Assembly (NCBI RefSeq): GCF_000744785.1
Contig: NZ_JQMO01000003.1
Location: 4,836,001-4,900,000 of the forward strand
DNA: 64,000 nucleotides
Reading direction: 5' to 3'
DNA from: Kitasatospora azatica KCTC 9699
GTDB taxonomy: Bacteria; Actinomycetota; Actinomycetes; Streptomycetales; Streptomycetaceae
Part shown: positions 5,816 to 34,713 of the stretch, piece after piece
Layout: each line of letters opens with the position of its first letter
Numbering within the stretch: position 1 is the stretch's first letter
The notes under the pieces: generated by a model
What the model saw: only the letters and a program-made list of their open reading frames with translations
What the model was told of the DNA's origin: nothing
Database searches by the model: none
Position numbers and translations under genes: made by a program

Positions 5816-5842
5816 GGTCGGCAACGCGGACTGACGGGCCGT

Positions 5843-6962: not shown

Positions 6963-6985
6963 CCGCGCCTGAAACTGACGTCGAG

Positions 6986-7743: not shown

Positions 7744-8652
7744 TCAGCGGGTGTTCTGCAGCAGGCCGCGGCTGCGCAGCACGCGGCGCTCCAGGGGGGA
7801 GAAGATCAACAGGTCGATGGCGACCCCGACGACCAGGATCAGGATGATACCGAGCAGCACTCCGGACATGTCGTTGGAGTCGCGCTGGTTCTCCAGGTAG
7901 CGGCCCAGGCCGATGCCCAGGTCGGGGGAGCTGGCGATCAGCTCGGCGGCCATCAGCGAGCGCCAGGAGAACGCCCAGCCCTGCTTGAGACCGGACAGGT
8001 AGCCGGGCAGCGCGGCCGGCAGCAGGATGTGCCGGGCGCCGCTGAGCCCGCGCGCCCCGAGGGTGCGACCGGCCCGCAGGAAGAGCGGCGGCACCTGGTC
8101 GATGCCGGAGATCAGGCCGTTGGCGATGGACGGCACCGCGCCGAGCAGGATCACCGCGTACATCGCCTGGTCGTTGATGCCCAGCCAGATCACCGCGGCC
8201 GGCACCCAGGCCACCGAGGGCAGCGACTGCAGACCGGAGAGCACCGGGCCGACCGCGGCCCGGACGAACTTCACCCGGGCCACCACCAGGCCGATCGGCG
8301 TGCCGATCACCACCGCCGCCAGGAAGCCGGAGATCCCGCGCCAGATGCTGGTCCAGATGATCGAGAACAGCGTCCCCTGGTACCAGAGGTCGGTCAGGCT
8401 GTGCCAGACGTCCAGCGGGCTGGGCAGCTTGTACGAGGCGGTGACGTGCAGGCTGTAGAGCAACTGCCAGATCGCGAGCACCAGCAGCACGCCGAGCACC
8501 GGCGGCAGCGCCTTCTCGCGCAGCACCTGGCCGATCGGGGCGCGCTGGATCTGCACGGCGTCGAGCGCGTCCAGCCCGGCCTCGACCCCGTGCAGGTCGT
8601 CGGCGGAGCTCTCCTTGGAGAGCGGAGCGGGGGCTGTCTCAGTGCTGGCCAT
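7744..8652 (-). CDS. ssuC: ABC transporter permease for sulfonates/organosulfur
   Basis: 302 residues with about six membrane helices and the binding-protein-dependent permease (EAA) loop near SGARHILLPAALPGYLSGLKQGWAFSWRSLMAAEL, typical of SsuC/TauC. It forms the channel of an importer with the ATPase and lipoprotein encoded just upstream. The ATG at 8652 lies inside the end of ssuB (14-bp overlap), suggesting translational coupling; GGGGAG precedes it. Location in the sulfur operon supports sulfonate or taurine-type substrates over nitrate or bicarbonate. Confidence 0.88.
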   Translation of the reverse strand: MASTETAPAPLSKESSADDLHGVEAGLDALDAVQIQRAPIGQVLREKALPPVLGVLLVLAIWQLLYSLHVTASYKLPSPLDVWHSLTDLWYQGTLFSIIWTSIWRGISGFLAAVVIGTPIGLVVARVKFVRAAVGPVLSGLQSLPSVAWVPAAVIWLGINDQAMYAVILLGAVPSIANGLISGIDQVPPLFLRAGRTLGARGLSGARHILLPAALPGYLSGLKQGWAFSWRSLMAAELIASSPDLGIGLGRYLENQRDSNDMSGVLLGIILILVVGVAIDLLIFSPLERRVLRSRGLLQNTR

Positions 8653-9442
8653 GGCGGCGGATCTCCCCACGCAGGTCTTCGGTGATCTCGACGGACAGGT
8701 CCGCGACGGCGGCGGACTCGATTCGGCGCGGCTGCGGCAGGTCGACCTGCCACTGCTTGGCCACCCGGCCGGGCCGGGAGGAGAGCAGCACCACGCGCTG
8801 GGCCAGCCGGACGGCCTCGCGCACGTTGTGCGTGACGAACAGGACGGTCAGCTGCCGTTCCTGCCAGATCCGGGTGATCTCCTCGTGCAGCACGTCGCGG
8901 GTGATCGCGTCCAGGGCCGCGAACGGCTCGTCCATCAGCAGCACGCTGCTGCCCTGGGCGAGCGCCCGGGCCATCGCGACCCGCTGGCGCATGCCGCCGG
9001 AGAGCTCGTGCACCCGCTTGCCGTAGGAGCCGCCGAGCCGCACCAGTTCGAGCAGCCGCTCGGCCTCGGCCTTGCGGTCGGCCCGGGCCACGCCGTTGAG
9101 CCGCAGCGCCAGCTCGATGTTCTTGCCGGCGGTCAGCCACGGGAAGAGCGCGTGCTCCTGGAACATCAGCGCCGGGCGGCCACCGGGCACCTCGATGCTG
9201 CCGGCCGTCGGCTTGTCCAGCCCGGCGACCAGGTTGAGCAGGGTGGACTTGCCGCAGCCGGACGCGCCGAGCAGGCAGACGAACTCGCCGGCGGCGACAT
9301 CGAGGGTGATGTCGTCCAGCACCGGGGTGGCCGCGCCGGGGCGGCCGAAGGACTTGTGCACGCCTGCGATCCGGACGGCAGGGGTGCCGGTCCGGTCCGC
9401 GATGTCGGGGGCCTCGTTCGGGGTGGTCAGTGCCGTGCTCAT
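8639..9442 (-). CDS. ssuB: ABC transporter ATP-binding protein for sulfonates
   Basis: 267 residues. Walker A GASGCGKST, Q-loop LMFQEHALFPW, signature LSGGMRQRVAMARAL, Walker B VLLMDEPFAALD and H-loop VLFVTHNVREA are all intact. The N-terminal 25 residues before VRIAGVHKSFG are a short extra extension. AGGAGG lies upstream of ATG 9442. Together with ssuC and ssuA it should make an ATP-driven importer of alkanesulfonates. Confidence 0.9.
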   Translation of the reverse strand: MSTALTTPNEAPDIADRTGTPAVRIAGVHKSFGRPGAATPVLDDITLDVAAGEFVCLLGASGCGKSTLLNLVAGLDKPTAGSIEVPGGRPALMFQEHALFPWLTAGKNIELALRLNGVARADRKAEAERLLELVRLGGSYGKRVHELSGGMRQRVAMARALAQGSSVLLMDEPFAALDAITRDVLHEEITRIWQERQLTVLFVTHNVREAVRLAQRVVLLSSRPGRVAKQWQVDLPQPRRIESAAVADLSVEITEDLRGEIRRHGQH

Positions 9443-9500
9443 AGCGGGCACCTCCTGGCGTGAGTGGGGCGAGCGAAAACTGGAGCGGGGCCGGGGTCCA

Positions 9501-9546
9501 CCCCCGCCCGACCCTGTGACTGGGCATCGACCGGGACGGGCGGGGG
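9501..9546 (-). terminator. Hairpin between ssuA and ssuB
   Basis: CCCCCGCCCG (9501-9510) pairs with CGGGCGGGGG (9537-9546) across a 26-nt loop, in the 148-bp gap between the ssuA stop and the ssuB start. It could partially terminate, or protect the 3' end of ssuA mRNA, and so raise binding-protein levels over the ATPase and permease. Confidence 0.45.
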
Positions 9547-9590
9547 AGGACACCGGAGCTACCGGTGCGGGGACAACGTCAGTGAGGGTG

Positions 9591-10736
9591 CTACGGGGTG
9601 CCGAGGCCGGCGTCGGCCGCCACGGGCTGACCGGCGGCCTTGAGCACCTTGTTGAGCAGCGACAGGTCGTAGATCCCGGCGATGTTGGGCTTCTTCAGCA
9701 GCCCGGCGGTCACCGCGTGGTCGGCCTCCGCCTGCAGGGTGCTGGCCAGCGGGTCGTCCAGGAAGTCGATGCTCTTCCAGGCCGGGGCGAGCACGTTGGC
9801 CGGCAGCGCGTTGCCGCCGGTCGCCTTGATCGCGTCGTTGGCGTCCTGCTGGGCCTTGTCCGGGTTGGCCTTGATGAAGGCGTTGGACTTCACCGAGCCG
9901 CGCAGCACGGCCTCCACCACGTCCGGGTGCTCCTTGAGGAACTTCTGCGAGACGATGATGTTGGTGATCACGAACTGCTTGTTCGGCCAGAGGTCCTTCT
10001 CGTCCAACAGCACCTTGGCGCCCTTGTTCACCAGGGTGGAGGCGGTGGGCTCGGGCACCCAGGCGCCGTCGATCGAGCCGGAGGAGTAGGCGTCCGGGGT
10101 GACCTTGTTGTCGGTGCGGACCACCGAGACGTCACCGGCGCCGGACTGCGGGTCCACCTTGTAGCCCTTGCCCGACAGGTAGTTCAGCAGCGCCACGTCC
10201 TGGGTGTTGCCGAGCTGCGGGGTGGCGATCTTCTTGCCCTTGAGGTCGTCCAGCGACTTGATCTTGTCCGGGTTGACCACCAGCCCGACGCCACCGGAGG
10301 CCGAGCCGCCGATGATCTTCAGGTTGGTGCTGTTGGACTTCACGTAGCCGTTGATCGCGGGGGAGGGGCCGATCCAGCCGATGTCGATCGAACCGGCGTT
10401 CAGCGCCTCGATCTCGGACGGGCCGGCGTTGAAGACCTGGGTCTTGATCTGGGTGCCGCCGAGCTCCTTCTGGAAGAGCCCTTCCTGCAGGCCGACCAGC
10501 GCGGTGCCGTGGGTCAGGTTGGCGAAGTAGCCGATCTTGACCGTGTCGGCGGACAGCTTCGCACCCGAGGTGGCCGCTGCCGGGGCGGCGTTGGCCTTGG
10601 TGTCGGCCTTGGAGCCGTAGCCGCCGCAGGCGGTCAGCAGGCCGACGGCGGTCAGACCCGCCACGCCGGTCAGCGTGGCGCGTCTGGCGCGCCCGGCGTT
10701 GGGGCGAAGCGGGCTATGCGTCTGAGAGGAAGCCAT
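9591..10736 (-). CDS. ssuA: Sulfonate ABC transporter substrate-binding lipoprotein
   Basis: 381 residues. A basic N-terminus and hydrophobic helix end in the lipobox LLTAC with Cys37 as the lipidation site. The mature part (KIGYFANLTHGTALVGLQEGLF, ALNAGSIDIGWIGPSPA, YLSGKGYKVDPQ) is an NMT1/SsuA-type periplasmic-binding fold (ABC substrate-binding protein). GGTGTCCTTCG precedes the ATG with a weak ribosome site. Upstream gap to cysN is 218 bp, so it may also have its own promoter. Confidence 0.88.
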   Translation of the reverse strand: MASSQTHSPLRPNAGRARRATLTGVAGLTAVGLLTACGGYGSKADTKANAAPAAATSGAKLSADTVKIGYFANLTHGTALVGLQEGLFQKELGGTQIKTQVFNAGPSEIEALNAGSIDIGWIGPSPAINGYVKSNSTNLKIIGGSASGGVGLVVNPDKIKSLDDLKGKKIATPQLGNTQDVALLNYLSGKGYKVDPQSGAGDVSVVRTDNKVTPDAYSSGSIDGAWVPEPTASTLVNKGAKVLLDEKDLWPNKQFVITNIIVSQKFLKEHPDVVEAVLRGSVKSNAFIKANPDKAQQDANDAIKATGGNALPANVLAPAWKSIDFLDDPLASTLQAEADHAVTAGLLKKPNIAGIYDLSLLNKVLKAAGQPVAADAGLGTP

Positions 10737-10954
10737 GGGAGGTGTCCTTCGCTGGAACGGTCAAGGGAAGCTGGTGCGTTGGCACGCCGGGTGCCGTCTT
10801 CTGGAGGTGCGGAAGGCGGCGGTGCACCCGGTGACGGAGTGTCAGAGACCCCGTCCGGACCCACATCGGCCGATGCCGCCCTGGCCACTGCCACGGACGC
10901 CGCTGCCGATGCGGCCGCCTTCCTTGTCCATGCCGGAGAACGCCTCTCCTGACA
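10737..10954 (-). other. Intergenic region cysN-ssuA
   Basis: 218 bp separate the cysN stop from the ssuA start. Just after the cysN stop the RNA can fold GGAGA-GGCGT-TCTCC (about 10939-10953). An open frame of 29 Gly/Arg-rich codons (10842-10931) lacks a clear ribosome site, so I do not call it a gene. No promoter hexamers were convincing. Confidence 0.3.
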
Positions 10955-12280
10955 TCAGACCCAGTCCCCCTCTTCCGCCTGCGGCTCGGCCACCGCGAGG
11001 GCGCCGCCGAAGGCCTCGCCCGCCATACCGGCGGTGAGCGTGGTGCCGTCGGCCGGGTCGATCAGCAGGAAGGACCCGGTCCGGCGGTTGTCGGTGTAGT
11101 CGTCCAGCGCCAGCGGCTCGGCGGTGCGCAGCACCACGCGGCCGATGTCGTTGACGCCCAAGCCCTCGGCGCCGGAGCGCTGTTCGAGGGTGTCGATGTC
11201 GATCCGGTAGGAGATCTCCTTGACCAGCGCGCGCACCGTGCGGGTGGTGTGCTTGAGCAGCACCTTGTCCCCGGCGCGCAGCGGGCGCTCGTGCAGGTGG
11301 CTCACGGTCGCCTCGACGTCCTTGGTGGGCACCGGCACCGGGCCCGCCGCGATCAGGTCGCCGCGCGAGATGTCGATGTCCTCGGCCAGGCGCACGGTGA
11401 TCGACTGCGGCGCCCAGGCGACGTCGGTCGCCTCGCCGAGCAGGTCGATGCCCGCCACCGTGGTGGTGTGCCCGGAGGGCAGCACCGTGACGGCGTCGCC
11501 GGTGCGCAGCACGCCGGAGGCCAACTGCCCGGCGTAGCCGCGGTAGTCGGGGTTCTCGGCGGACTGCGGCCGGATCACGTACTGGACCGGGAAGCGGGCC
11601 GGCTCGACGCTCGGGTCGGTGCCGACCGGCACCGTCTCCAGGTGCTCCAGCAGGGTCGGGCCGCCGTACCAGTCCATGTGCGCGGAGGGCTCGACCACGT
11701 TGTCGCCGGCCAGCGCCGAGATCGGGATCGAGACGATGTCGCTCACCCCGAGGGAGGCCGCGTAGGCGGTGAACTCCTCGGCGATCGCCGCGAAGACGGG
11801 CTCGGCGTAGTCGACCAGGTCCATCTTGTTGACGGCCAGGACCACGTGCGGCACCCGCAGCAGCGCGGCCACCGCGGCGTGCCGGCGGGTCTGCTCGACC
11901 ACGCCGTTGCGCGCGTCCACCAGCACCACGGCCAGCTCGGCGGTGGAGGCGCCGGTCACCATGTTGCGGGTGTACTGCACGTGCCCGGGGGTGTCGGCCA
12001 GGATGAACCGCCGCCGGGGCGTGGCGAAGTAGCGGTACGCCACGTCGATGGTGATGCCCTGCTCGCGCTCGGCCCGCAGGCCGTCGGTGAGCAGCGCCAG
12101 GTCGGGAGCCTCCTGGCCGCGCTTGCGGGAGGCGTGCTCGACGGCCTCCAGCTGGTCGGCCAGCACCGACTTGGAGTCGTGCAGCAGGCGGCCGACCAGG
12201 GTCGACTTGCCGTCGTCCACGGACCCGGCGGTGGCGAAACGCAGCAGCGAGGTGGCGGTCAATTCGGTGGTGCTGGACAT
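10955..12280 (-). CDS. cysN: Sulfate adenylyltransferase subunit 1 (GTPase)
   Basis: 441 residues. G1 GSVDDGKST (19-27), the Thr of switch I in REQGITIDVAYRYF, G3 DTPGH and G4 NKMD are present, followed by EF-Tu-like beta-barrel domains. The GTPase stimulates the CysD subunit to form APS from sulfate and ATP. Its length is normal for an actinobacterial CysN without a fused CysC domain, and a separate cysC is present. It begins one base after the cysD stop (12282). Confidence 0.95.
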   Translation of the reverse strand: MSSTTELTATSLLRFATAGSVDDGKSTLVGRLLHDSKSVLADQLEAVEHASRKRGQEAPDLALLTDGLRAEREQGITIDVAYRYFATPRRRFILADTPGHVQYTRNMVTGASTAELAVVLVDARNGVVEQTRRHAAVAALLRVPHVVLAVNKMDLVDYAEPVFAAIAEEFTAYAASLGVSDIVSIPISALAGDNVVEPSAHMDWYGGPTLLEHLETVPVGTDPSVEPARFPVQYVIRPQSAENPDYRGYAGQLASGVLRTGDAVTVLPSGHTTTVAGIDLLGEATDVAWAPQSITVRLAEDIDISRGDLIAAGPVPVPTKDVEATVSHLHERPLRAGDKVLLKHTTRTVRALVKEISYRIDIDTLEQRSGAEGLGVNDIGRVVLRTAEPLALDDYTDNRRTGSFLLIDPADGTTLTAGMAGEAFGGALAVAEPQAEEGDWV

Positions 12281-12281
12281 T

Positions 12282-13220
12282 TTAGAAGTACCCCTCGCGC
12301 TTGCGGTCTTCCATGGCGGCCTCGGAGAGCTTGTCGTCGGCCCGGGTCGCCCCCCGCTCGGTCAGCCGGCTGGCGGCGATCTCGGTGATCACGTCCGCGA
12401 TGGTCGCGGCGGCCGAGTCGACGGCGCCGGTGCAGGACATGTCGCCGACCGTGCGGTAGCGGATCAGCCGCCGCTGCACCGTCTCGCCCTCCTTGGGGCC
12501 GCCCCACTCGCCGGCGGTCAGCCACATGCCGTCGCGGGCGAAGACGTCGCGCTCGTGCGCGTAGTAGATCTCCGGCAGCTCGATCGCCTCGCGCTCGATG
12601 TACTGCCAGACGTCCAGCTCGGTCCAGTTGGAGAGCGGGAAGACCCGGACGTGCTCGCCGACCGCGTGCTTGCCGTTGTAGAGGTTCCACAGCTCGGGGC
12701 GCTGGCGGCGCGGGTCCCAGGCGCCGAACTCGTCGCGCAGCGAGAACACCCGCTCCTTGGCGCGGGCCTTCTCCTCGTCCCGGCGGCCGCCGCCGAAGAC
12801 CGCGTCGAACTTGCCGGTCTCGATGGCGTCCAGCAGCGGGACGGTCTGCAGCGGGTTGCGGGTGCCGTCCGGGCGCTCGCGCAGCCGGCCGTCGTCGATG
12901 AAGTCCTGCACGCTCGCCACGTGCAGCCGCAGGTTGTGCTCGGCCACCACGCGGTCGCGGTAGGCGATCACCTCGGGGAAGTTGTGGCCGGTGTCCACGT
13001 GCAGCAGCGAGAACGGGATCGGCGCCGGGGCGAAGGCCTTGAGCGCCAGGTGCAGCATGACGATCGAGTCCTTGCCGCCGGAGAACAGGATCACCGGACG
13101 CTCGAACTCCCCCGCGACCTCGCGGAAGATGTGCACCGCCTCGGCCTCCAGGGCGTCGAGGTGGGAGAGCGCGAAGGGATTGTCGCTGCGCTCGATCGGG
13201 CTGGCGGTCGCGGTCGTCAT
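12282..13220 (-). CDS. cysD: Sulfate adenylyltransferase subunit 2
   Basis: 312 residues. The PP-loop SGGKDS (47-52), HVDTGHNFPEVIAYRD and the C-terminal KREGYF typical of CysD are seen. It is the catalytic subunit that adenylates sulfate to APS with CysN. Its ATG overlaps the cysC stop by 4 bp (ATGA), so cysC-cysD-cysN are coupled. Confidence 0.96.
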   Translation of the reverse strand: MTTATASPIERSDNPFALSHLDALEAEAVHIFREVAGEFERPVILFSGGKDSIVMLHLALKAFAPAPIPFSLLHVDTGHNFPEVIAYRDRVVAEHNLRLHVASVQDFIDDGRLRERPDGTRNPLQTVPLLDAIETGKFDAVFGGGRRDEEKARAKERVFSLRDEFGAWDPRRQRPELWNLYNGKHAVGEHVRVFPLSNWTELDVWQYIEREAIELPEIYYAHERDVFARDGMWLTAGEWGGPKEGETVQRRLIRYRTVGDMSCTGAVDSAAATIADVITEIAASRLTERGATRADDKLSEAAMEDRKREGYF

Positions 13221-13831
13221 GCGAGGCCCCTCTCGGACAGGAAGGTGTGCAGTTCGGCGGCGGACTCGGCGACCGAGCGGCCCTGGGTCTGCAGGCGCAG
13301 CTCGGGGTGCTCGGGAGCCTCGTACGGGTCGTCGACGCCGGTGAGGCCGGAGATCTCACCGGCGGCCTGCTTGGCGTACAGGCCCTTGACGTCGCGCTCC
13401 GAGCAGAGCTCGACGGGGGTGGCAACGTGGATCTCCAGGAACTCGGCGCCCTGCTCGGCGTGCCGGGTGCGGACCGCGGCACGGGAGTCGGCGTAGGGGG
13501 CGATCACCGGGGCGAGCACCTTCACACCGTTCTTGGCCAGCTTCTCGGCGACGAAGCCGATCCTGGTCACGTTGGTGTGCCGGTCCTCCTTGCTGAAACC
13601 CAGTCCCTTGGAGAGGAACTCGCGGATCTCGTCCCCGTCCAGCACCTCGACCTTGTGGCCCTCGGCGCGCAGCCGGTCGGCCAGCGCGAAGGCCAGGGTG
13701 GTCTTGCCGGCGCTGGGCAGCCCGGTCAGCCACACCGTGGCGCCGCGCTCGCAGGGGGCGGCCACGGGGGCCGCCTCCGCGGCTTCCCCGGCGGCGGCCA
13801 AGGTGTCGGCTGTGGTCACGTTTCGCTCCAA
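13217..13831 (-). CDS. cysC: Adenylylsulfate kinase
   Basis: 204 residues. P-loop GLPSAGKTT (37-45), VLDGDEIREFLSKGLGFSKEDRHTNVTRIGFVA-type APS-binding region, and the ELCSERDVKGLYAKQAAGEISGLTGVDDPYE lid region are canonical for APS kinase, which phosphorylates APS to PAPS. The first 28 residues are an Ala-rich extension. Cotranscribed with cysD and cysN downstream. Upstream lies an AT-rich patch and the tandem repeats. Confidence 0.95.
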   Translation of the reverse strand: MERNVTTADTLAAAGEAAEAAPVAAPCERGATVWLTGLPSAGKTTLAFALADRLRAEGHKVEVLDGDEIREFLSKGLGFSKEDRHTNVTRIGFVAEKLAKNGVKVLAPVIAPYADSRAAVRTRHAEQGAEFLEIHVATPVELCSERDVKGLYAKQAAGEISGLTGVDDPYEAPEHPELRLQTQGRSVAESAAELHTFLSERGLA

Positions 13832-13860
13832 AATTAAGTAACTGACAAAAAAAGAGGATT

Positions 13861-13952
13861 CAGAGGTGGCTGTATCCGTTGACCATCAGAGGTGGCTGTA
13901 TCCATTGACCATCAGAGATGGCTGTATCCATTGACCATCAGAGATGGATCCC
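13861..13952. repeat. 26-bp tandem repeat spanning the cysH 3' end (3 copies plus partial)
   Basis: Three head-to-tail copies start at 13861, 13887 and 13913, differing by one or two bases (GAGGTGG/GAGATGG; CCGTTGA/CCATTGA), and a fourth partial copy (13939-13952) is the real end of cysH. Read on the minus strand, the end of cysH including its TGA has been duplicated downstream into the cysH-cysC spacer. Each copy carries a TGATGGTCAA segment. 26 bp is not a codon multiple, so the repeats are not coding. Confidence 0.9.
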
Positions 13953-14636
13953 GCACTCGGTCTTGCCGGACCCGGCCCAGCGGCCGGCCCGGCCCTCCTC
14001 GCCCTCGCCCGGCTTGCGGGTGCAGGAGAGCGGCGAGCAGCCGACCGAGGTGTAGCCCTCCCACAGCAGCGGGTTGAGCAGCACCCCGTTGGCCTGGACG
14101 TAGGCGTCCACGTCCGCCTGGGTCCAGCGGGCGATCGGCGCGATCTTCACCTTGCGGCGCTTCGCGTCCCAGGCCACCACCGGGGTGTTGGCGCGGGACG
14201 GCGACTCGTCGCGGCGCAGGCCGGTCGCCCAGGCGTCGTAGGCGCCCAGTCCGCGCTGCAGCGGCTCGACCTTGCGCAGCGAGCAGCACAGGTCCGGGTC
14301 CCGGTCGTGCAGGTTGGGCCCGTACTCGGCGTCCTGCTCGGCCACCGTCTGACGCGGGGTCAGGGTGATCACGTTGACCGGCATGGTCGCGGCGACCGCG
14401 TCCCGGGTGCCGATGGTCTCCGGGAAGTGGTAGCCGGTGTCCAGGAAGACCACGTCGATGCCGGGCAGCGCGGTGGAGGCCAGGTGGGCGACCACCGCGT
14501 CCTCCATCGAGGAGGTGACGCAGAGCTTCTTGCCGAAGGTGCCGGCGGCCCAGCGCAGGATCTCCTGCGCCGAGGCCTCCTCCAGATCGCGCCCGGCCGC
14601 GGTGGCCAGCGCCTCCAGATCAGTGGTGGTGCTCAC
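13938..14636 (-). CDS. cysH: APS/PAPS reductase with atypical cysteine spacing
   Basis: 232 residues from GTG 14636 (GGGGGAG upstream). VTSSMEDAVVAHLA, FLDTGYHFPETIGTRD, the CCSLRKVEPL pair and the C-terminal KTECGIHL identify an assimilatory APS/PAPS reductase that reduces activated sulfate to sulfite. CC plus a later Cys pair indicates the 4Fe-4S, APS-type branch. The second pair here reads VGCSPLSCTR, four residues between cysteines rather than the usual two. The start overlaps the zinc-ribbon gene by 17 bp. Confidence 0.93.
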   Translation of the reverse strand: MSTTTDLEALATAAGRDLEEASAQEILRWAAGTFGKKLCVTSSMEDAVVAHLASTALPGIDVVFLDTGYHFPETIGTRDAVAATMPVNVITLTPRQTVAEQDAEYGPNLHDRDPDLCCSLRKVEPLQRGLGAYDAWATGLRRDESPSRANTPVVAWDAKRRKVKIAPIARWTQADVDAYVQANGVLLNPLLWEGYTSVGCSPLSCTRKPGEGEEGRAGRWAGSGKTECGIHL

Positions 14637-14799
14637 TTGTGCTCCCCCCGTTCGAAGCTGACAGCAGACCAAGGAACTTCACTTGGAAAGCGCGGCGGCA
14701 GCTCGCGCATTCCCAGGCGCCGTGTCCGCCTTCCGCGGACGGGCGAAGGTCCTCGTCACCGCAGTACGGGCAGTAGAACGGGGCCGCGCGCTCGCTCAT
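14620..14799 (-). CDS. Small zinc-ribbon protein of the sulfate operon
   Basis: 59 residues from ATG 14799 with GAGG upstream. FYCPYCGDEDLRP and WECASCRRAFQVKF form a CxxC-CxxC zinc ribbon. It lies between sirA and cysH and overlaps the cysH start, so it is translated with the reductase genes. Conserved position in actinobacterial sulfur operons (from memory) suggests a role in metal or sulfur handling, or in regulation, but no activity is known to me. Confidence 0.75.
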   Translation of the reverse strand: MSERAAPFYCPYCGDEDLRPSAEGGHGAWECASCRRAFQVKFLGLLSASNGGSTSEHHH

Positions 14800-14872
14800 G
14801 CGGCCACCTCGCTTCGCTCGGCGGTCGCTTCGCGAGACGCGCACCTCTTGATGGTTCGCTCGCTTCGCTCGC
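14800..14872 (-). repeat. Short GCTTCGCTCGC-type repeats between sirA and zinc-ribbon gene
   Basis: This spacer contains four near copies of CGCTTCGCTCG or its variants (around 14810, 14826, 14853 and 14862), which can form small GCGAAGC-loop hairpins. The same CGCTTCGCTCGCTCAC string occurs near 4288. Such elements are common in Streptomyces spacers; here they may weaken or protect the message between sirA and cysH. Confidence 0.5.
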
Positions 14873-16585
14873 TCACGACAACTGCTCCTCGCTGGCCCGG
14901 GCGGTCCACTGGGCGAACCGCTCGCCCTCCTCGCGGTCGGCCTGGAAGCGGGTCAGCACCCGCTCCACGTAGTCCGGCAGGCCGTCCTTGGTGACCTTCA
15001 GCCCGCGCACCTTGCGGCCGAAGCCGGCCTCCAGGCCGAGCGCGCCGCCCAGGTGGACCTGGTAGCCCTCCACCTGGTTGCCGTGCTCGTCGGTCACCAG
15101 CTGGCCCTTGAGACCGATGTCCGCGACCTGGATCCGGGCGCAGGCGTTCGGGCAGCCGTTGATGTTGATGGTCAGCGGCTCGTCGAACTGCGGCAGCCGT
15201 GCCTCCAGCTCGTCGATCAGGGTGCGCCCGCGCTCCTTGGTCTCGACGATGGCGAGCTTGCAGTACTCGATGCCGGTGCAGGCCATGGTGCCGCGGCGGA
15301 ACGGGGACGGGGTGACACGCAGGTCCAGCGCCTCCAGGCCGGCCACCAGGGACTCGACGTGCTCCTCGGGCACGTCCAGCACCAGCATCTTCTGCTCGGC
15401 GGTGGTGCGCAGCCGGTCCGAGCCGTGCGCGGCGGCGAGTTCGGCGACCTTGCCGAGCAGGGCGCCGTCCACCCGGCCGACCCGCGGCGCGAAGCCGACG
15501 TAGTAGTTGCCGTCCTTCTGCTTGTGCACGCCGACGTGGTCGCGCCAGACGCCGGTGGGCTGCTCGGGCGCGGGGCCGTCGACCAGCTGGTACTTGAGGT
15601 ACTCGTCCTCCAGCACCTGGCGGAACTTGTCCTTGCCCCAGTCGGCGACCAGGAACTTCAGGCGGGCGCGGTTGCGCAGCCGGCGGTAGCCGTAGTCGCG
15701 GAAGATGCCGATCACGCCGCCGTAGACGTCCGCGACCTCCTGCAGCGGCACCCAGGCGCCCAGGCGCACACCCAGCTTGGGGTTGGTGGACAGGCCGCCG
15801 CCGACCCACAGGTCGAAGCCCGGGCCGTGCTCGGGGTGGTTCACGCCGACGAAGGCGATGTCGTTGATCTCGTGCGCCACGTCCAGCAGCGGGGAGCCGG
15901 AGACCGCCGACTTGAACTTGCGCGGCAGGTTGGAGAAGTCCGGGTTGCCGATGAAGCGGCGCTGGATCTCCTCGATGGCGGGGGTGCCGTCGATGATCTC
16001 GTCCTCGGCGATGCCGGCCACCGGGGAGCCGAGGATGACCCGCGGGGTGTCGCCGCAGGCCTCGGTGGTGGACAGGCCGACGCCCTCCAGCTTCTGCCAG
16101 ATCGCGGGCATGTCCTCGATCCGGATCCAGTGGTACTGGATGTTCTGGCGGTCGGTCAGGTCGGCGGTGCCGCGCGCGTACTGCTGCGAGACCTCGGCGA
16201 TCGCCTGCAGCTGGGCGACGGTGAGGCGGCCGCCGTCGATCCGGACCCGGAGCATGAAGTACTCGGCGTCCAGCTCGTGCGGCTCCAGGATCGCGGTCTT
16301 GCCGCCGTCGATCCCCTCCTTGCGCTGGGTGTACAGACCCCACCAGCGCATCCGGCCGCGCAGGTCGGACGGGTCGATCGAGTCGAAGCCGCGGTGCGCG
16401 TAGATCGTCTCAATGCGTGTCCGCACATTGAGACCGTCATCGTCCTTCTTGAACTGCTCGTTGGCGTTCAGCGGAGTGAAGTGCCCCATGCCCCACTGGC
16501 CCTCGCCACGGTGGCGGGTCACCTTGCGGGCGGCGGCAGCACGGGGCGCGGGCTGGGGCTCGACCGGGTCGGAAGTGGTTGGCAT
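14873..16585 (-). CDS. sirA: Ferredoxin-dependent sulfite reductase
   Basis: 570 residues from ATG 16585 (AAGGACC upstream). Two nitrite/sulfite reductase repeats are visible, and the C-terminal half carries C436-x5-C442 and C478-x3-C482, the ligands of the 4Fe-4S/siroheme centre. It reduces sulfite to sulfide with six electrons from ferredoxin. Nitrite reductases of the same family look similar, but the surrounding cys genes and siroheme chelatase make sulfite the natural substrate. First enzyme gene of the operon, preceded by a leader peptide. Confidence 0.93.
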   Translation of the reverse strand: MPTTSDPVEPQPAPRAAAARKVTRHRGEGQWGMGHFTPLNANEQFKKDDDGLNVRTRIETIYAHRGFDSIDPSDLRGRMRWWGLYTQRKEGIDGGKTAILEPHELDAEYFMLRVRIDGGRLTVAQLQAIAEVSQQYARGTADLTDRQNIQYHWIRIEDMPAIWQKLEGVGLSTTEACGDTPRVILGSPVAGIAEDEIIDGTPAIEEIQRRFIGNPDFSNLPRKFKSAVSGSPLLDVAHEINDIAFVGVNHPEHGPGFDLWVGGGLSTNPKLGVRLGAWVPLQEVADVYGGVIGIFRDYGYRRLRNRARLKFLVADWGKDKFRQVLEDEYLKYQLVDGPAPEQPTGVWRDHVGVHKQKDGNYYVGFAPRVGRVDGALLGKVAELAAAHGSDRLRTTAEQKMLVLDVPEEHVESLVAGLEALDLRVTPSPFRRGTMACTGIEYCKLAIVETKERGRTLIDELEARLPQFDEPLTININGCPNACARIQVADIGLKGQLVTDEHGNQVEGYQVHLGGALGLEAGFGRKVRGLKVTKDGLPDYVERVLTRFQADREEGERFAQWTARASEEQLS

Positions 16586-16776
16586 GTGAGGGTCCTTCGG
16601 GGAGGTGGCTCTGCTGCTGGAGGTGTGCGTCTTCCCGGGACCGTGCCTACTCCGACCTGCGAACCTGTGGTACCAGGTGGATGGCGGTGATCGTGGCCCT
16701 GGGCGCCGGCACATCCGCTACGGCGGGGATGGCGAGGCGGGTGGCGCCGGTGCGGTGGTGGCGGCTGGGGTGGGGC
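16586..16776 (-). promoter_or_regulatory. Leader RNA between leader peptide and sirA
   Basis: This 191-nt untranslated stretch follows the leader-peptide stop. It can form competing structures: two CCGGCGCC segments (near 16702 and 16749) can pair with each other or themselves, and ACCTG-GTACC-CAGGT (about 16662-16680) is an inverted repeat. This is compatible with attenuation coupled to the leader peptide, but no clear terminator with a U tract is visible. Confidence 0.45.
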
Positions 16777-16860
16777 TCAGATCACCGGACAGATGGCGCT
16801 GGACACGCGAAGGAGATCGACGTGGAGTCGACCTACTAGGGTGGTTCCGGCGCTAGGCAT
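16777..16860 (-). CDS. Putative leader peptide of the sulfur operon (27 aa, HVDL motif)
   Basis: A 27-codon frame from ATG 16860 to TGA 16777 encodes MPSAGTTLVGRL followed by HVDLLRVSSAICPVI. It matches the pattern I know from automated annotation of actinobacterial sulfur genes as 'putative leader peptide' (HVDLxR followed by Ser and Cys near the C-terminus). It lies 191 bp upstream of sirA. Translation through its Cys codon near the end could report cysteine supply and control the downstream operon by attenuation. No strong Shine-Dalgarno is present, so it may be translated from a leaderless or short-leader RNA. Confidence 0.8.
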   Translation of the reverse strand: MPSAGTTLVGRLHVDLLRVSSAICPVI

Positions 16861-17014
16861 GGCAAGAGATTCGCACGCCGAGCGAGGCGCGGTCCACTGA
16901 CGTCCAGAATGCGGACGAGTTTGTTCCGAATCGCGAGATCGGCGCGCAGTCGCCGAGCTGGCGACGGTACCGGCCCGCCGGTGCGCCCGAAGCTCTGGGC
17001 CTGCCCGATACCGT

Positions 17015-18406
17015 ATGGGTGTGCAGCCACCAGGTGAAGTCAGCAGAGCGGGCGCCGAGCGGCCCTCCCGGCGACGGGGGAAGGGCGCCCGGCGGGCGGC
17101 CCGGCGGTCGAGCTGGCGCGGCACCGTCTGGGCCCTGGTCAAGGACACCACCAACACCTGCGTCGAGTACCGGGTCACCGGGCTGGCGGCGGAGGCGGCC
17201 TTCTTCACCCTGCTCTCCATCCCGCCGCTGCTGCTCTGCCTGGCCGGCACCCTCGGCTACCTGGACGAACTGCTCGGCGCCGGGACCATCCAGAAGCTGC
17301 AGCACGACATCCTCTCGGCCGCCGGCACGGTGCTCTCGCAGTCCTCGATCCACCAGACCGTGCAGCCACTGCTGGACGGCGTCTTCGCGCACGGACGCCC
17401 CGACCTGATCTCGATCGGCTTCCTGCTCTCGCTCTGGTCCGGCTCCCGGGCGCTCTACATCTTCATCGACACCATCACCGTGATGTACGGGCTGGACGGC
17501 AAGCGCGGGATCGTCAAGACCCGGACCATGTCGCTCGGCCTCTACCTCGGCGCCCTGGTGATCGGCTCCCTGGTGCTGCCCCTGCTGGTGGCCGGCCCAG
17601 GGCTGGTGGTGGCGGCGGTGCCCAACATCGCAGGCCTGGTCAGCGCGCTCTACTGGCCGGTCGCGATCCTGCTGCTGATCATCTTCCTGACCACCCTCTA
17701 CCACCTCTCGGTGCCGGCCAACACGCCCTGGCGCGAGGACATCCCCGGCGCCCTGGTGGCGCTCGGGGTGCTGGTGCTGTGCAGCCTGGTGCTGCGGGTC
17801 TACCTGGTCAGCTCGGTGGAGGGCCACTCGGTCTACGGCTCGCTGGCCGCGCCGGTCGCGGTACTGCTGTGGATCTTCGTGCTGGCGCTCGCGGTGCTGA
17901 TCGGCGCCGCCATGAACGCCGCGCTAGACCGCCGCTGGCCCAGCGTGGAGACCGCCGACGCCCGGGCCGAGAGCGAGCGGGCCAGCGAGCAGCGGGCCGC
18001 CGCACTGGTCCGCCAGGTGGGCGTGCGCCGGGCCGCCGAGCGGGCCCAGCGGGCCCGGACGCTCGGGCTGGCCGACAGCTACGACGAGGAGTTCGGCGAG
18101 GAGGGCGCCGAGGACGACGAGGTGCCCTCGGAGTACCCCGAGCGGTGGGCCGACTTCCTGGCGCCCGGAAATGTGCGCGGACGGCTCGGCGGCCTGCGCC
18201 GCCGTCGCCGGCGGACCCCGCCGCCCCCGCCGGACACCGACCGTCCGGTCGCCCGGCCCGCCCCGCACCACGCGGCCGACCCCACCGGAGCGGTGGAGCA
18301 CCCGGCCGGGCCGTGGGCCTCCGACGGGCGGTTCCCGGGAGAGCTGGGGCCGGTGGACTCGGCGCTGCCGAGCTACCCGCCGCGGCCGCCGTGGGACGGG
18401 CCGTGA
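17015..18406 (+). CDS. YihY/BrkB family inner-membrane protein
   Basis: 463 residues. A basic N-terminus is followed by YRVTGLAAEAAFFTLLSIPPLLL, and six membrane helices with WSGSRALYIFIDTITVMYG, PWRE and SVYGSLAAPVAVLLWIFVLALAVLIGAAMNA, all family landmarks. The last 130 residues are soluble, Ala/Arg/Glu-rich then Pro-rich, probably disordered cytoplasmic tail. The molecular function of YihY/BrkB proteins is not settled (the old RNase BN assignment is wrong). No ribosome site is visible before the ATG. Divergent from the sulfur operon. Confidence 0.88.
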   Translation: MGVQPPGEVSRAGAERPSRRRGKGARRAARRSSWRGTVWALVKDTTNTCVEYRVTGLAAEAAFFTLLSIPPLLLCLAGTLGYLDELLGAGTIQKLQHDILSAAGTVLSQSSIHQTVQPLLDGVFAHGRPDLISIGFLLSLWSGSRALYIFIDTITVMYGLDGKRGIVKTRTMSLGLYLGALVIGSLVLPLLVAGPGLVVAAVPNIAGLVSALYWPVAILLLIIFLTTLYHLSVPANTPWREDIPGALVALGVLVLCSLVLRVYLVSSVEGHSVYGSLAAPVAVLLWIFVLALAVLIGAAMNAALDRRWPSVETADARAESERASEQRAAALVRQVGVRRAAERAQRARTLGLADSYDEEFGEEGAEDDEVPSEYPERWADFLAPGNVRGRLGGLRRRRRRTPPPPPDTDRPVARPAPHHAADPTGAVEHPAGPWASDGRFPGELGPVDSALPSYPPRPPWDGP

Positions 18407-28672: not shown

Positions 28673-29275
28673 TCAGCCGCCGGCCGTGCCCAGCAGCGCC
28701 GCCGCCACCGCCCGCACCCGCGCCGCCGACCGCTCCCGGTCCGCCCCCGGCAGCCCGATCGCCAGCGGCACCGAGAACCCGTCCAACACCGCGCGCAGTT
28801 GCACCGCCCGCTCCTCCGCCGACCCCGGCCGGAACTCCCCGGCCGCCACCCCGTCCTCGATCAACGCCTCCAGATCCGCCTGCCAGGGCGCCTCGATCTC
28901 CAGCTGCCCGGCCCGGATCTCCGCACTGGCAGGCGAGCGCCCCCACACCTCGACCCACAGGATCCACCGCGGATCCCCCGGCCCGTCCGCCAGGTACAAC
29001 TCCGCATACGCCGCGAACCGCTCCCACGCACCGCCCCGCGCCAGCGCCACCCGCCGCCGCTCCCCGAGCTGCTCCTCACTCCACCGCAGGGTCTCCAGCA
29101 GCAGCTGGTCCTTGCTCCCGAAGTAATAGAGGAGATGCCCCGCACTCATCCCCAGCTGCTTCCCCAACCCCGCCATGGTCAGCTTCGCCAACCCGTGCTC
29201 CGCGATCGCCCCCATCGCCACCGCGAGCACCTCCTCCCGCGGCCGCGCGGGTCGCCGAGGGCGGGGGTCGGTCAT
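28673..29275 (-). CDS. TetR family regulator (BetI-like C-terminal domain)
   Basis: 200 residues from ATG 29275 (AAGGAG upstream). TMAGLGKQLGMSAGHLLYYFGSKDQLLLETL is the DNA-binding helix-turn-helix. The C-terminal part (DPRWILWVEVWGRS, AVLDGFSVPLAIGLPG) resembles the TetR_C_6/BetI type. The gene uses C-ending codons very heavily. The next gene upstream (amidase) is divergent, 235 bp away. Target unknown. Confidence 0.85.
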   Translation of the reverse strand: MTDPRPRRPARPREEVLAVAMGAIAEHGLAKLTMAGLGKQLGMSAGHLLYYFGSKDQLLLETLRWSEEQLGERRRVALARGGAWERFAAYAELYLADGPGDPRWILWVEVWGRSPASAEIRAGQLEIEAPWQADLEALIEDGVAAGEFRPGSAEERAVQLRAVLDGFSVPLAIGLPGADRERSAARVRAVAAALLGTAGG

Positions 29276-30330: not shown

Positions 30331-31368
30331 TCAGGCCTTCGGCTGCTGCTGGGTGATGCAGTGGATGCCGCCGCCGTTGGCGAAGATCTCGCGGGCGTCG
30401 ACCAGCTCGACGGTGCGGTCGGGGAAGGCCTCGGCGAGGATGGCTGCTGCTTCCTCGTCGCGGGGGTCGTTGAAGGCGCAGAGGATCACGGCGCCGTTGG
30501 CGACGTAGTGGTTGATGTAGGAGTAGTCGACCGGCTCGCCGTCCTCGTCGTGCAGGGCGGTGGGGGCCGGGACTTCGATGACCTCCAGCTGGCGGCCCTG
30601 GGCGTCGGTCGAGGCGCGCAGGATGGCGACCAGTTCCTGGCAGACGGTGTGGTCGGGGTGGGCGGGGTCGGGCTGGACGTGGGCGAGGACGACGCCGGGG
30701 CGGACGAAGGAGGCCACGATGTCGATGTGGCCGCGGGTGCCGAACTCGTCGTAGTCGCGGGTGAGTCCACGGGGGAGCCAGATCGCCTTGGTGGTGCCGA
30801 GGTGGGCGTGCAGCTCGGCCTCGACCTGTTCCTTGGTCCAGTCGGAGTTGCGGCCCTCGCCGAGCTGGACGGTCTCGGTGACCAGTACCGTGCCCTCGCC
30901 GTCCACGTGGATGCCGCCGCCCTCGTTGATCAGGCGGGAGGCGAAGCGCTGGACACCCGTCAGCTCGCTGATGTGTTCGGCGATGTGCTGGTCGTGCTCC
31001 CAGTTGGCCCAGGACTGGGCGCCCCAGCCGTTGAAGATCCAGTCGGCGGCGGCGAGTTGACCGTCGGGCCCGAGCAGGAAGGTGGGGCCGATGTCGCGCA
31101 TCCAGGCGTCGTCCAGCGGGCGCTCGACGATCTCGACCTCCGCGGAGACGTACTCCTGCGCGGCCTTGGTCTCGCCGAGGTTGACGATCAGCGTCACCGG
31201 CTCGTAGCGGACGATGGTGTTGGCCACCTTTGCCCAGGCGAGGCGGGCCGCGTGCAGGTCCTCGGGGTTGTCGAAGGTCTGGTTGTCGGTGGGGAAGGCC
31301 ATCCAGGTGCGCTCGTGCGGGTGCCATTCGGCGGGCATCGAGAAACCGAGAGCGGAGGGGGTGGTCAT
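30331..31368 (-). CDS. aguA: Agmatine deiminase
   Basis: 345 residues from ATG 31368. SMPAEWHPHERTWMAFP, DDAWMRDIGPTFLL, LINEGGGIHVDGEG (E149, H154), YDEFGTRGHIDIVASF and the nucleophile region NGGGIHCITQQQP (C337) are all present, as in agmatine deiminases of the guanidine-modifying superfamily. It converts agmatine to N-carbamoylputrescine and ammonia. It starts 29 bp after the urease alpha-subunit stop on the same strand, so the three genes form one operon. Peptidyl-arginine deiminase-like paralogues look similar, but bacterial proteins of this length are normally agmatine deiminases. Confidence 0.9.
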   Translation of the reverse strand: MTTPSALGFSMPAEWHPHERTWMAFPTDNQTFDNPEDLHAARLAWAKVANTIVRYEPVTLIVNLGETKAAQEYVSAEVEIVERPLDDAWMRDIGPTFLLGPDGQLAAADWIFNGWGAQSWANWEHDQHIAEHISELTGVQRFASRLINEGGGIHVDGEGTVLVTETVQLGEGRNSDWTKEQVEAELHAHLGTTKAIWLPRGLTRDYDEFGTRGHIDIVASFVRPGVVLAHVQPDPAHPDHTVCQELVAILRASTDAQGRQLEVIEVPAPTALHDEDGEPVDYSYINHYVANGAVILCAFNDPRDEEAAAILAEAFPDRTVELVDAREIFANGGGIHCITQQQPKA

Positions 31369-31397
31369 CAGAACAAGTCCTAAGAGGTGAAGGGCTC

Positions 31398-33116
31398 TTA
31401 CAAGAAGTACAGGCGGCTGAGCGAGACGCTCTCGGAGGGCTCGGAGCGCAGCGGTTCGCCGTTGAGCGAGACCAGGCCGTTGGCCGCGTCGACGCTGACC
31501 GAACCGATCTGCGCGTTGCGGACCATGTCGCGCGGGCCGATCCCGCGGGTTCCGCGCACGCCCACCCGTCGTCGTCGGGTGGGGAGTTGGTCGGCGGCCT
31601 GGTCCAGGTAGGCGCCGTCGGCGGCGGCCTGGGCGACGAAGGCGACCGAGATGTCGGCGGCGGTGGCGCCGTGGGCGCCGAACTGTGGGCCGAGGAGCAG
31701 GGGTTCGCAGCGGTCGGTGGAGGCGTTGGGGTCGCCGACCACGCCGTACGCGGGGAAGCCGCCCTTCAGCACCAGTTGCGGCTTGGCGCCGAAGTGGTCG
31801 GGGCGCCAGAGCACGATGTCGCCGAGCTTGCCGACCTCGATCGAGCCGACCTCGTGCGAAAGGCCGTGCGCGATGGCGGGGTTGATGGTGAGCTTGGCGA
31901 TGTAGCGGAGCACCCGCTCGTTGTCGTCGCCGCTCTCCCTGGTGCCGTAGCCGCCGTCCAGCGGGCCGCGTTCGGCCTTCATCTTGCCGGCCATCGCGAA
32001 GGTGCGGCGCACGGTCTCGCCGGCCCGGCCCATGCCCTGGGCGTCGGAGGAGGTGATGCCGATCATGCCGAGGTCGTGCAGCACGCCCTCGGCGCCCATG
32101 GTGCCGGCCCGGACCCGGTCGCGGGCCATGGCGGCGTCGCCGGGCAGGTCGAGCTTGAGGTCGTGGGCGGAGACGATCATGCCGGCGGCCTCGGCCAGCG
32201 CGTCCCGGCCGAACGGCAGGGTCGGGTTGGTGGAGGAGCCGATGACGTTGGCGACGCCGGCCATCTTCAGCACGTTGGGGACGTGGCCGCCGCCGCAGCC
32301 CTCGATGTGGAAGGCGTGGATGGTTCGGCCCTCGAGCACCGCGAGGGTGTCCTCGACCGACAGGCACTCGTTCAACCCGTCGGTGTGCAGGGCGACTTGG
32401 ACGTCGTACTCCTCGGCTACCCGGAGCGCGGTGTCCAGCGCCCGGGTGTGCGCGCCCATGTCCTCGTGCACCTTGAAGCCGCTGGCCCCGCCCTCGGCCA
32501 GCGCCTCGACCAGCGGGCCCGGGTCGGAGGAGGAACCCCGGCCGAGGAAGCCGATGTTGACCGGCCAGGCGTCGAAGGCGTTGAAGGCGTGCCGCAGCGC
32601 CCAGGGGGAGTTGACGCCCACGCCCCAGACCGGCCCGAACTCCTGGCCGATGATGGTGGTCACGCCGGAGGCCAGCGAGGCCTCCATGATCCGTGGCGAG
32701 AGCAGGTGGACATGGGTGTCGATGGCGCCGGCGGTGGCGATCAGGCCCTCGCCGGAGACGATCGTGGTGCCGGTGCCGACCACCACGTCCACGCCGTCCA
32801 TGGTGTCGGGGTTGCCGGCCCGGCCGATCGCCGCGATCCGGCCGTTGATCAGGCCGATCGAGGTCTTCACGATGCCCTGGACCGCGTCGATCACCAGCAC
32901 GTTGCTGATCACCACGTCGCAGGTGGAGCGGACGGTGGCGGCCTTGAGGTGCAGGCCGTCGCGCGCGGTCTTGCCGAAGCCGGCCAGGAACTCGTCACCG
33001 GGGGCCTGTGAGTCGGCTTCGACCCGGACGATCAGTCCGGAGTCGCCGAGCCGGATCCGGTCGCCGGTGCGGGGACCGTGCACGGAGATGTAGTCGTGGG
33101 GAGAAATCGACGTCAC
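31398..33116 (-). CDS. ureC: Divergent urease alpha subunit with altered active-site flap
   Basis: 572 residues. Nickel ligands and substrate-site residues align with classical UreC: H135 and H137 (THVHLL), carbamylated K215 and H217 (GFKVHEDMG), H244 (ALHTDGLNE), H270 (FHIEGCGGGH), D358 (SSDAQGMGR). The mobile flap, normally MVCHHLDP with catalytic Cys and His, reads MIVSAHDLKLD here (S316, A317, H318). So the metal site is kept but the flap acid is lost. Encoded between fused ureAB (4-bp overlap) and agmatine deiminase; no ureDEFG in the window. A urea-like substrate such as N-carbamoylputrescine is possible. Confidence 0.88.
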   Translation of the reverse strand: MTSISPHDYISVHGPRTGDRIRLGDSGLIVRVEADSQAPGDEFLAGFGKTARDGLHLKAATVRSTCDVVISNVLVIDAVQGIVKTSIGLINGRIAAIGRAGNPDTMDGVDVVVGTGTTIVSGEGLIATAGAIDTHVHLLSPRIMEASLASGVTTIIGQEFGPVWGVGVNSPWALRHAFNAFDAWPVNIGFLGRGSSSDPGPLVEALAEGGASGFKVHEDMGAHTRALDTALRVAEEYDVQVALHTDGLNECLSVEDTLAVLEGRTIHAFHIEGCGGGHVPNVLKMAGVANVIGSSTNPTLPFGRDALAEAAGMIVSAHDLKLDLPGDAAMARDRVRAGTMGAEGVLHDLGMIGITSSDAQGMGRAGETVRRTFAMAGKMKAERGPLDGGYGTRESGDDNERVLRYIAKLTINPAIAHGLSHEVGSIEVGKLGDIVLWRPDHFGAKPQLVLKGGFPAYGVVGDPNASTDRCEPLLLGPQFGAHGATAADISVAFVAQAAADGAYLDQAADQLPTRRRRVGVRGTRGIGPRDMVRNAQIGSVSVDAANGLVSLNGEPLRSEPSESVSLSRLYFL

Positions 33117-33823
33117 GACTCGACCTCCGAGTTGTCGAAGTTGATCAGGTAGCCGGTGGCGCGGGCCTTCTCCAGGGCGGCCTCGCGGGCGCCGGGGGCG
33201 TCGAGCGGGCCGTCGACCAGGCCGGCGAAGCCGATCGCCACCCGCGCGCCGGCGATCGGGACCAGTCCGACCTCGACCACCGCGCCGGGGTCGAAGCGCA
33301 CCGAGGAGCCGGCCGGCACGGCGAGCCGGGTGCCGTAGGCGGCCGCCCGGTCGAAGGCGAGGCGGGGATTGACCTCGAAGAAGTGGTAGTGCGAGGTGAC
33401 CGAGATCGGTACCGGCGAGGTGTTGTGGACGGGCAGGACCACGGTCTCCTCGACCGGGTCGTAGCCGGCGCCGCTGCCCGGCAGCGCCGCGCCCGGGGCC
33501 TCCTCGCCGAGTGAACCGGCGCCCTGGAACGGGTCGTTGATCACGGCGAGCCTGGTGCCGTCGTCGAACACGGCCTCCACCTGCACCACGGTGACCACGT
33601 CGGGCACGCCGGGCAGCACGTCGGCGGCGCTGAGCACGGTGCGGCCGGCCTCGATCGCCTCGGCCAGTCGCAGCCCGTCGCGGGCGGCCTCGCAGACCGT
33701 GTCGGCGATCAGCGCTGTGGCCTCGGGCACGTTGAGCCGCACGCCGCGGGCGCGCCGGGCGCGGGCCAGTTCGGCGGCTGTGAAGATCAGCAGCCGGTCC
33801 CGTTCGGTGGGGGTGAGTCGCAC
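33113..33823 (-). CDS. ureAB: Fused urease gamma/beta subunit
   Basis: 236 residues. Residues 1-100 are UreA-like (MRLTPTERDRLLIFTAAELARARRARGVRLNVPEA) and 110-236 UreB-like (VHNTSPVPISVTSHYHFFEVNPRLAFDR, AYGTRLAVPAGSSVRFDPG). The fusion is common in actinobacteria. It forms the structural scaffold with UreC. The stop overlaps the ureC ATG by 4 bp. No accessory genes for nickel insertion follow. Confidence 0.92.
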   Translation of the reverse strand: MRLTPTERDRLLIFTAAELARARRARGVRLNVPEATALIADTVCEAARDGLRLAEAIEAGRTVLSAADVLPGVPDVVTVVQVEAVFDDGTRLAVINDPFQGAGSLGEEAPGAALPGSGAGYDPVEETVVLPVHNTSPVPISVTSHYHFFEVNPRLAFDRAAAYGTRLAVPAGSSVRFDPGAVVEVGLVPIAGARVAIGFAGLVDGPLDAPGAREAALEKARATGYLINFDNSEVES

Positions 33824-33882
33824 GGTGCCTCGCTCGCGGGTCGGCGGGGATCGGGTGAAGGACGTCAGAACGTGGAGGAAGT

Positions 33883-33897
33883 TAGAACGGCGTTCAA
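33883..33897. promoter_or_regulatory. Candidate operator upstream of ureAB
   Basis: TTAGAACGGCGTTCA is an inverted repeat with GAAC/GTTC arms, 60 bp upstream of ureAB on the minus strand and 124 bp before the carbonic anhydrase gene. Sites like AGAACGNNGTTC are typical TetR operators in Streptomyces. No matching regulator is adjacent. Confidence 0.4.
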
Positions 33898-34020
33898 AGT
33901 CGTGCTGGCCATTGAACCCGGAACGGGTCGCCGTGTCCAGCCTTGCCCGGCTTGCGAGGTTCTGCGCGTTGGGGTGACCGGTGGGGGTGTCACTCGTTTG
34001 CCAGCGCGAGGAGGTCGCTC

Positions 34021-34713
34021 ATGGTGAGTCGGCGTGCGGTGCTGGGAGCCGGAGCCCTGGTGGTGCTGCCCGGGCAGCGGCGGGCCGCCGTCCCCGCCGT
34101 GAACTCGCCGAGCGACGCGACCCAGGCGCTGGCCCGGTTGCGCGAGGGCAACATGCGGTGGGTGCGCGGCGCGGCCCGGCACCCGGACGCCTCGCTGCCG
34201 CGCCGGCAGGACCTGGCCGGCGGCCAGGCGCCGTTCGCGGTGGTCTTCTCCTGCATCGACTCCCGGGTGCCGCCCGAACTGGTCTTCGACCAGGGGCTCG
34301 GTGACCTGCTGGTGGTGCGGACCGCCGCGCACACCCTGGACCGGCTGGTCACCGGCAGCCTGGAGTACGGCCCCGCCGAACTGGCGACCCCGCTGCTACT
34401 GGTGCTCGGACACCAGCGTTGCGGGGCGGTCACCGCTGCCGTCGGGGCGCTGCGCGGCGGCGAGCCGCTGCCGGGACACCTGGCCGAGGTGGCCGAGGAC
34501 CTGCGGCTGCCGTACCAGGCGGTGCTGGCCCGGGGTGTCGCGGAGGCGGACCTGGTGGACGCCGTGGTCCGCGAGCAGACCCGGCAGACCGTCGAGAAGC
34601 TTCGGGCCGACCGGCTGTTGGCGCCGGCGGTGGCGGCGGACCGGCTGTTGGTCTGCGGCGGCTACTACTCGCTGGACAGCGGCACGGTGGCGTTCGACTC
34701 CTTCGAACGGTAG
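34021..34713 (+). CDS. Exported beta-class carbonic anhydrase
   Basis: 230 residues from ATG 34021 (GAGGAGG upstream). MVSRRAVLGAGALVVL resembles a short Tat signal with an arginine pair. The zinc site is intact: VVFSCIDSRVPPE (Cys, Asp/Arg dyad) and GHQRCGA (His, Cys). It interconverts CO2 and bicarbonate, probably outside the membrane. Divergent from the urease operon, whose product is carbamate/CO2, which may be why they are neighbours. Confidence 0.88.
   Translation: MVSRRAVLGAGALVVLPGQRRAAVPAVNSPSDATQALARLREGNMRWVRGAARHPDASLPRRQDLAGGQAPFAVVFSCIDSRVPPELVFDQGLGDLLVVRTAAHTLDRLVTGSLEYGPAELATPLLLVLGHQRCGAVTAAVGALRGGEPLPGHLAEVAEDLRLPYQAVLARGVAEADLVDAVVREQTRQTVEKLRADRLLAPAVAADRLLVCGGYYSLDSGTVAFDSFER

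Follow-up and report, generated by a model that had tools for sequence, protein, structure and literature searches.

Urease has essentially one accepted substrate and depends on elaborate nickel-loading machinery. The conversion of agmatine to putrescine is known to follow three routes and an AguY variant, none of which, in the open-licence literature searched, involves a urease (PMC12283126, 2025), and the ure(AB)C genes of Streptomyces have been treated as urease genes (PMC2492869, PMC5489568, PMC3293853). Here we describe an operon from Kitasatospora azatica KCTC 9699, located in a 64-kb window (the whole stretch of DNA analyzed), in which genes for a urease-like complex precede a gene for an agmatine-deiminase-family enzyme. 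An original prediction made from the sequence of this stretch held that the complex hydrolyzes N-carbamoylputrescine. The operon, ureAB*-ureC*-aguA, spans window positions 33823–30331 on the minus strand; asterisked names (UreAB*, UreC* and UreABC*) denote the subfamily to which its urease-like proteins belong. Its genes are as follows:

33113–33823, minus strand: ureAB*, fused urease gamma/beta subunit (NF009671, 313.6 bits against a cut-off of 243), upstream of ureC* in relatives too
31398–33116, minus strand: ureC*, urease-like catalytic subunit of 572 amino acids, outside the four canonical ureases tested
30331–31368, minus strand: aguA, agmatine-deiminase-family enzyme of 345 amino acids, the sole PF04371 gene of the genome, with the catalytic His, Asp and Cys kept

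These coordinates confirm the predicted layout, with a 4-nucleotide overlap between ureAB* and ureC* and a 29-nucleotide gap between ureC* and aguA. The accompanying claim that ureDEFG are missing holds for the operon itself, which no urease accessory gene adjoins, but not for the 8.27-Mb host genome, whose nearest named relatives are mostly Kitasatospora and which encodes UreG and UreD beside two further urease alpha genes of the canonical type. The products of those two genes score 883 and 902 bits against the TIGR01792 equivalog model (cut-off of 680), whereas UreC* scores 621.6 bits. Across 121 Streptomycetaceae genomes, full-length matches to UreC* are bimodal, with either at least 76% or at most 49% identity, and 47 UreC* sequences part from four canonical ureases with 100/100 support in a maximum-likelihood tree, which is unrooted and has long branches. 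At class level, members occur in other families too, at 53–85% identity, and no member was found on the viral contigs searched. By these sequence criteria, UreC* is a urease subfamily of Streptomycetaceae and other actinomycete families that is unrecognized as far as the open-licence literature shows.

The deiminase gene adjoins ureC* in 30 of 30 close relatives, and a deiminase-family gene is present at all 80 named UreC* loci, lying directly downstream in 78. Of the 121 genomes, 81 carry both genes, none carries UreC* alone, six carry the deiminase alone and 34 carry neither (Fisher P = 3e-24, uncorrected for kinship); that is, all 81 UreC* genomes carry a deiminase, and all 34 genomes without a deiminase also lack UreC*. 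UreC*-like fragments occur in two of the six deiminase-only genomes (G028 and G046). The pair persists at 52% UreC* identity with the gene order changed, aguA preceding ureAB* (L063 and L064), and also in second-copy clusters. This survey bears out the statement in the original prediction that accessory-less urease genes lie beside a deiminase in other Streptomyces, which S. coelicolor SCO5525–5526 and SCO5527 fit (PMC3293853). Our results support the view that the urease-like complex and the deiminase form a conserved functional pair.

We propose, with a probability of about 0.6, that the products of the operon process a guanidino compound in two steps under TetR control, with UreABC* hydrolyzing an N-substituted urea made by the deiminase. 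In the first step, the AguA-type deiminase would convert R-NH-C(=NH)NH2 to R-NH-CO-NH2 and ammonia, as its family and catalytic triad suggest: H224, D226 and C366 of MtAIH have their counterparts in its GHID and GGGIHC motifs. In the second step, UreAB*–UreC* would hydrolyze this N-substituted urea, yielding R-NH2, CO2 and ammonia, a role that the gene association and changes in the pocket point to. Other UreC* loci that adjoin PotABCD-type polyamine importers, in one case with an Orn/Lys/Arg decarboxylase, or an Arg-type binding protein also favor this scheme. Because UreC* is paired with a deiminase and occurs in genomes without the maturation proteins searched for, it probably acts on larger molecules that contain a urea group, N-carbamoylputrescine for example, rather than on urea itself.

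Hydrolysis would take place at the usual bimetallic, carbamyl-lysine center. As predicted, the nickel ligands are all retained: H135, H137, K215, H244, H270 and D358, a bimetal set that includes the carbamylated-Lys position, were found by alignment and are identical in all members aligned. Two neighboring segments of ureC* differ from canonical enzymes:

32601–32645, minus strand: remodeled pocket loop, codons Q158–W172 of ureC*, with a 4-residue deletion relative to K. aerogenes 157–175 and loss of Ala167/SpAla170
32157–32180, minus strand: flap M-I-V-S-A317-H318-D-L, codons M313–L320 of ureC*, with A317 at the flap Cys and H318 at the catalytic flap His

In the UreC* of this operon, the pocket loop GGTGPAAGTHATTCTPGPW gives way to QEFGPVWGVGVNS----PW, with a new motif, QEFGPVWGVG. 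Approximately 70 UreC* genes were aligned, drawn from Streptomycetaceae and from seven further families of actinomycetes; the Ala170 loop is rewritten and shorter by four residues in all of them, and a new Trp is invariant. A276C is a further constant departure, and most members, including the one in this operon, have A363G (Ala366 in S. pasteurii). In urease structures, urea is bound through its Ni-coordinated NH2 group by the Ala170 and Ala366 carbonyls (PMC7433671), and the active site is thus altered where an N-substituted urea would need to be admitted. The residue at position 159 of the QE motif is acidic (E or D) in UreC* outside nonribosomal peptide synthetase (NRPS) clusters; in three plasmid-borne copies (L164–L166), the shortened loop is present, Ala363 is kept and Asn replaces the acidic residue. 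Judged by alignment, the loop shortening, overlooked in the original prediction, is a stronger change to the active site than that in the flap.

The flap had been read as V-S-A-H, lacking both Cys and His and changed to admit the alkyl tail. These letters are present and the Cys is lost, but the register was wrong. HMMER alignments of UreC* to four solved ureases run without gaps across the flap, pairing V315-S-A317-H318-D319 with M-V-C319-H320-H321 of K. aerogenes, and the spacings H270–H318 (48) and H318–D358 (40) equal those of H272–H320–D360 in that enzyme. A317, H318 and D319 therefore correspond to Cys319, His320 and His321, and a flap without His is ruled out. The His320 equivalent is kept in every member examined, as are, in UreC*, D219 (Asp221) and the Arg336 equivalent, whose counterparts lock the catalytic His (PMC7433671). 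The flap Cys is replaced by Ala, Val, Ser or Thr in most members and remains in L059, L062 and L080. With the flap His retained for catalysis, the shortened loop, the invariant Trp, the Ala366-to-Gly change and the loss of the flap Cys (the last two in nearly all members) would remodel the cavity to accommodate the R tail.

UreG scores over its cut-off in exactly eight of 29 genomes, those with a canonical UreC, and at none of the 80 named UreC* loci. Of the 21 UreC*-only genomes, 18 encode neither UreG nor UreD (UreF and UreE were not searched), among them the single-contig genome G069; the three exceptions hold a UreD remnant (G105), a weak 46-bit GTPase (G146) and a UreG piece at a contig edge (G383). 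Because UreG and UreD are missing from UreC*-only genomes, genome content suggests that UreC* is independent of the canonical UreDFG machinery. The complex would then mature either spontaneously or by using a metal other than nickel, and the UreC* metal is possibly not nickel.

A more specific version of the two-step proposal, which we advance tentatively and rate somewhat below even odds, is that UreABC* is a maturation-independent, possibly non-nickel enzyme whose substrate is N-carbamoylputrescine or a closely similar ureido amine instead of urea, forming a further agmatine-to-putrescine route in actinomycetes, and that its NRPS-associated relatives trim ureido groups in natural products. 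Agmatine is a plausible but uncertain substrate of the deiminase. N-carbamoylputrescine would be the most likely substrate of UreABC* here, giving putrescine, with citrulline or a ureido acid as alternatives. No AguB (TIGR03381) scores over the cut-off of 410 bits in the 121 Streptomycetaceae genomes or in the host, where the best score is 263.5, and the host genome contains neither a PF00491 arginase/agmatinase gene nor a PF01276 decarboxylase. The claimed absence of a nitrilase-type amidase was nonetheless too strong, as two host nitrilase-family genes score approximately 260 bits against the AguB model. By hand count, such nitrilases are found as often in genomes with UreC* (76 of 81) as in those without a deiminase (31 of 34) and thus are not linked to the pair.

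Several observations weigh against these proposals. One of the two host nitrilases adjoins a dihydropyrimidinase and has a plant N-carbamoylputrescine amidohydrolase as its best PDB match, which makes a weak case that it is an N-carbamoylputrescine amidase. An AlphaFold model of UreC* built from 32 rows, mostly 83–95% identical to it, had a mean pLDDT (predicted local distance difference test) of 35 and was not used, and the case for an altered pocket is therefore drawn from the alignments. No deiminase lies nearby at UreC* loci L047–L052, L057–L062 and L080 or on the plasmids (L164–L166), and the substrate range at these loci is therefore wider or different. In the deiminase itself, Gly occupies the D220 position, and the gate loop with Arg301 is lost, leaving a loop 15 residues shorter. 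As Asp220 and the gate-loop Arg301 contact the amine of agmatine or close the site in plant enzymes (PMC6447857), these losses make agmatine uncertain and another guanidino compound possible.

Such a compound is central to the alternative that survives best, although we consider it unlikely: the same two steps would operate without agmatine, the deiminase taking arginine, an arginyl peptide or a guanidino acid and UreABC* hydrolyzing citrulline or a ureido acid. Beyond the missing D220 and Arg301 contacts, the deiminase scores 327.4 bits against the AguA equivalog TIGR03380, below the cut-off of 381.8, and several deiminases have Arg at N222. Second-copy (type-2) clusters with Tat-like deiminases and an importer of the Opp (peptide/nickel) class, and an Arg/Lys/Orn-type binding protein beside UreC* in L049, point the same way. 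Conversely, the agmatine channel retains D89 and W91, PotABCD-type polyamine importers occur beside UreC* in L051, L052, L059 and L062 (NCBIfam assignment on L062), and the acidic residue at position 159 would suit an amine-bearing tail if its position in space allows.

Still less probable is that UreABC* is an ordinary urease isoform acting on urea, which borrows UreDFG from the canonical clusters and has the deiminase as an unrelated neighbor. The retained metal ligands, flap His, Asp221 and Arg336, the presence of UreG and UreD elsewhere in the host and the counting of ure(AB)C among urease genes in publications (PMC2492869, PMC5489568) would all be expected of such an isoform. However, it would have to be reconciled with the 18 of 21 UreC*-only genomes that lack UreG and UreD, with an association far above chance with a deiminase, which makes no urea, and with the shortening of the Ala170 loop in all members. 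Complete guanidine mineralization, in which the deiminase would convert free guanidine to urea for hydrolysis by UreABC*, would account for the tight pairing and for a urease following a deiminase but is very improbable, given that the deiminase channel is opened by loss of the gate loop rather than narrowed, that the urea-binding loop of UreC* is remodeled and that, to our knowledge, no deiminase turning free guanidine into urea is known.

The TetR control invoked in the two-step proposal concerns two features flanking the operon:

28673–29275, minus strand: TetR/BetI-type regulator; 63 of 71 loci have a homolog no more than 6 kb away
33882–33898, no strand assigned: 17-bp palindrome TTTGAACG-C-CGTTCTAA, candidate operator upstream of ureAB*

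The palindrome has one match in the window, against 0.02 expected, and recurs at 50 of 80 loci, almost always upstream of ureAB*; in L081, it precedes the TetR gene too. A carbonic-anhydrase-like gene (window positions 34039–34713), divergent from ureAB*, had been taken to fit the release of CO2. It is beside the operon in only two of 71 relatives, and we rejected it as a part of the system.

The neighborhoods of other UreC* loci are varied. Eight second-copy clusters (L066, L068, L070, L072, L074, L076, L078 and L082) hold TetR genes, UreABC* and an Opp-class ATP-binding cassette importer, together with one to four divergent deiminase paralogs, some of which have twin-arginine translocation (Tat)-like N termini by eye. 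In L062 (positions 8076–17699), an Orn/Lys/Arg decarboxylase gene is followed on one strand by a PotABCD-like importer, an Amidohydro_3 protein and UreABC*, with no deiminase. Amidohydro_3-type proteins, a family assigned from the copy in L062, recur beside UreABC* in L049, L051, L052, L060, L062, L081 and L083. The deiminase is often absent from these loci, where such a protein may replace the deiminase step. In L080 (positions 3771–7432), open reading frames of 1,090 and 129 amino acids lie between Opp-type importer genes and ureAB*. Basal UreAB*–UreC* pairs (63% identity) are found on plasmids of Embleya sp. NBC_00888 (L164), Streptomyces sp. NBC_00637 (L165) and S. anulatus NBC_01523 (L166), in an NRPS gene cluster that also contains phosphotransferases and, according to one annotation, a 2-oxoglutarate–Fe(II) oxygenase; there, the pair may act as a tailoring enzyme, removing a ureido group.

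If correct, our proposal would give the urease fold a new job, account for the step missing downstream of AguA in Streptomyces and provide a natural accessory-free urease scaffold. It would also change the annotation of urease genes in many actinomycete genomes, which are now counted as ureolysis genes.

UreABC* shares with canonical UreABC (K. aerogenes and S. pasteurii) its fold, its subunit plan (with UreA and UreB fused in UreAB*), its metal ligands, the flap His320 and the Asp–His–Arg lock. It differs in its identity of only ~45–49% in UreC*, its score below the TIGR01792 cut-off, the flap Cys replaced and A363G acquired in most members, the loop shorter by four residues, its occurrence in genomes free of UreG and UreD and its deiminase partner. 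S. coelicolor SCO5525–5526 (ureABC) and SCO5527 (an AguA homolog) constitute the same gene set as the operon; they have been named as urea-utilizing genes and as a homolog of the arginine decarboxylase (ADC) pathway, respectively, and not treated as one pathway (PMC3293853). The iron urease UreA2B2 of Helicobacter, a paralog beside the canonical Ni urease, is reported to be accessory independent (PMC6737895), as the UreG/UreD-free genomes suggest UreC* may also be; UreA2B2, however, acts on urea and has no described deiminase partner. Although their folds and mechanisms are unrelated to those of UreABC*, AguB (a nitrilase), AguY (an amidase) and putrescine transcarbamylase are each encoded next to aguA and act at the same step that we propose for UreABC* (PMC12283126).

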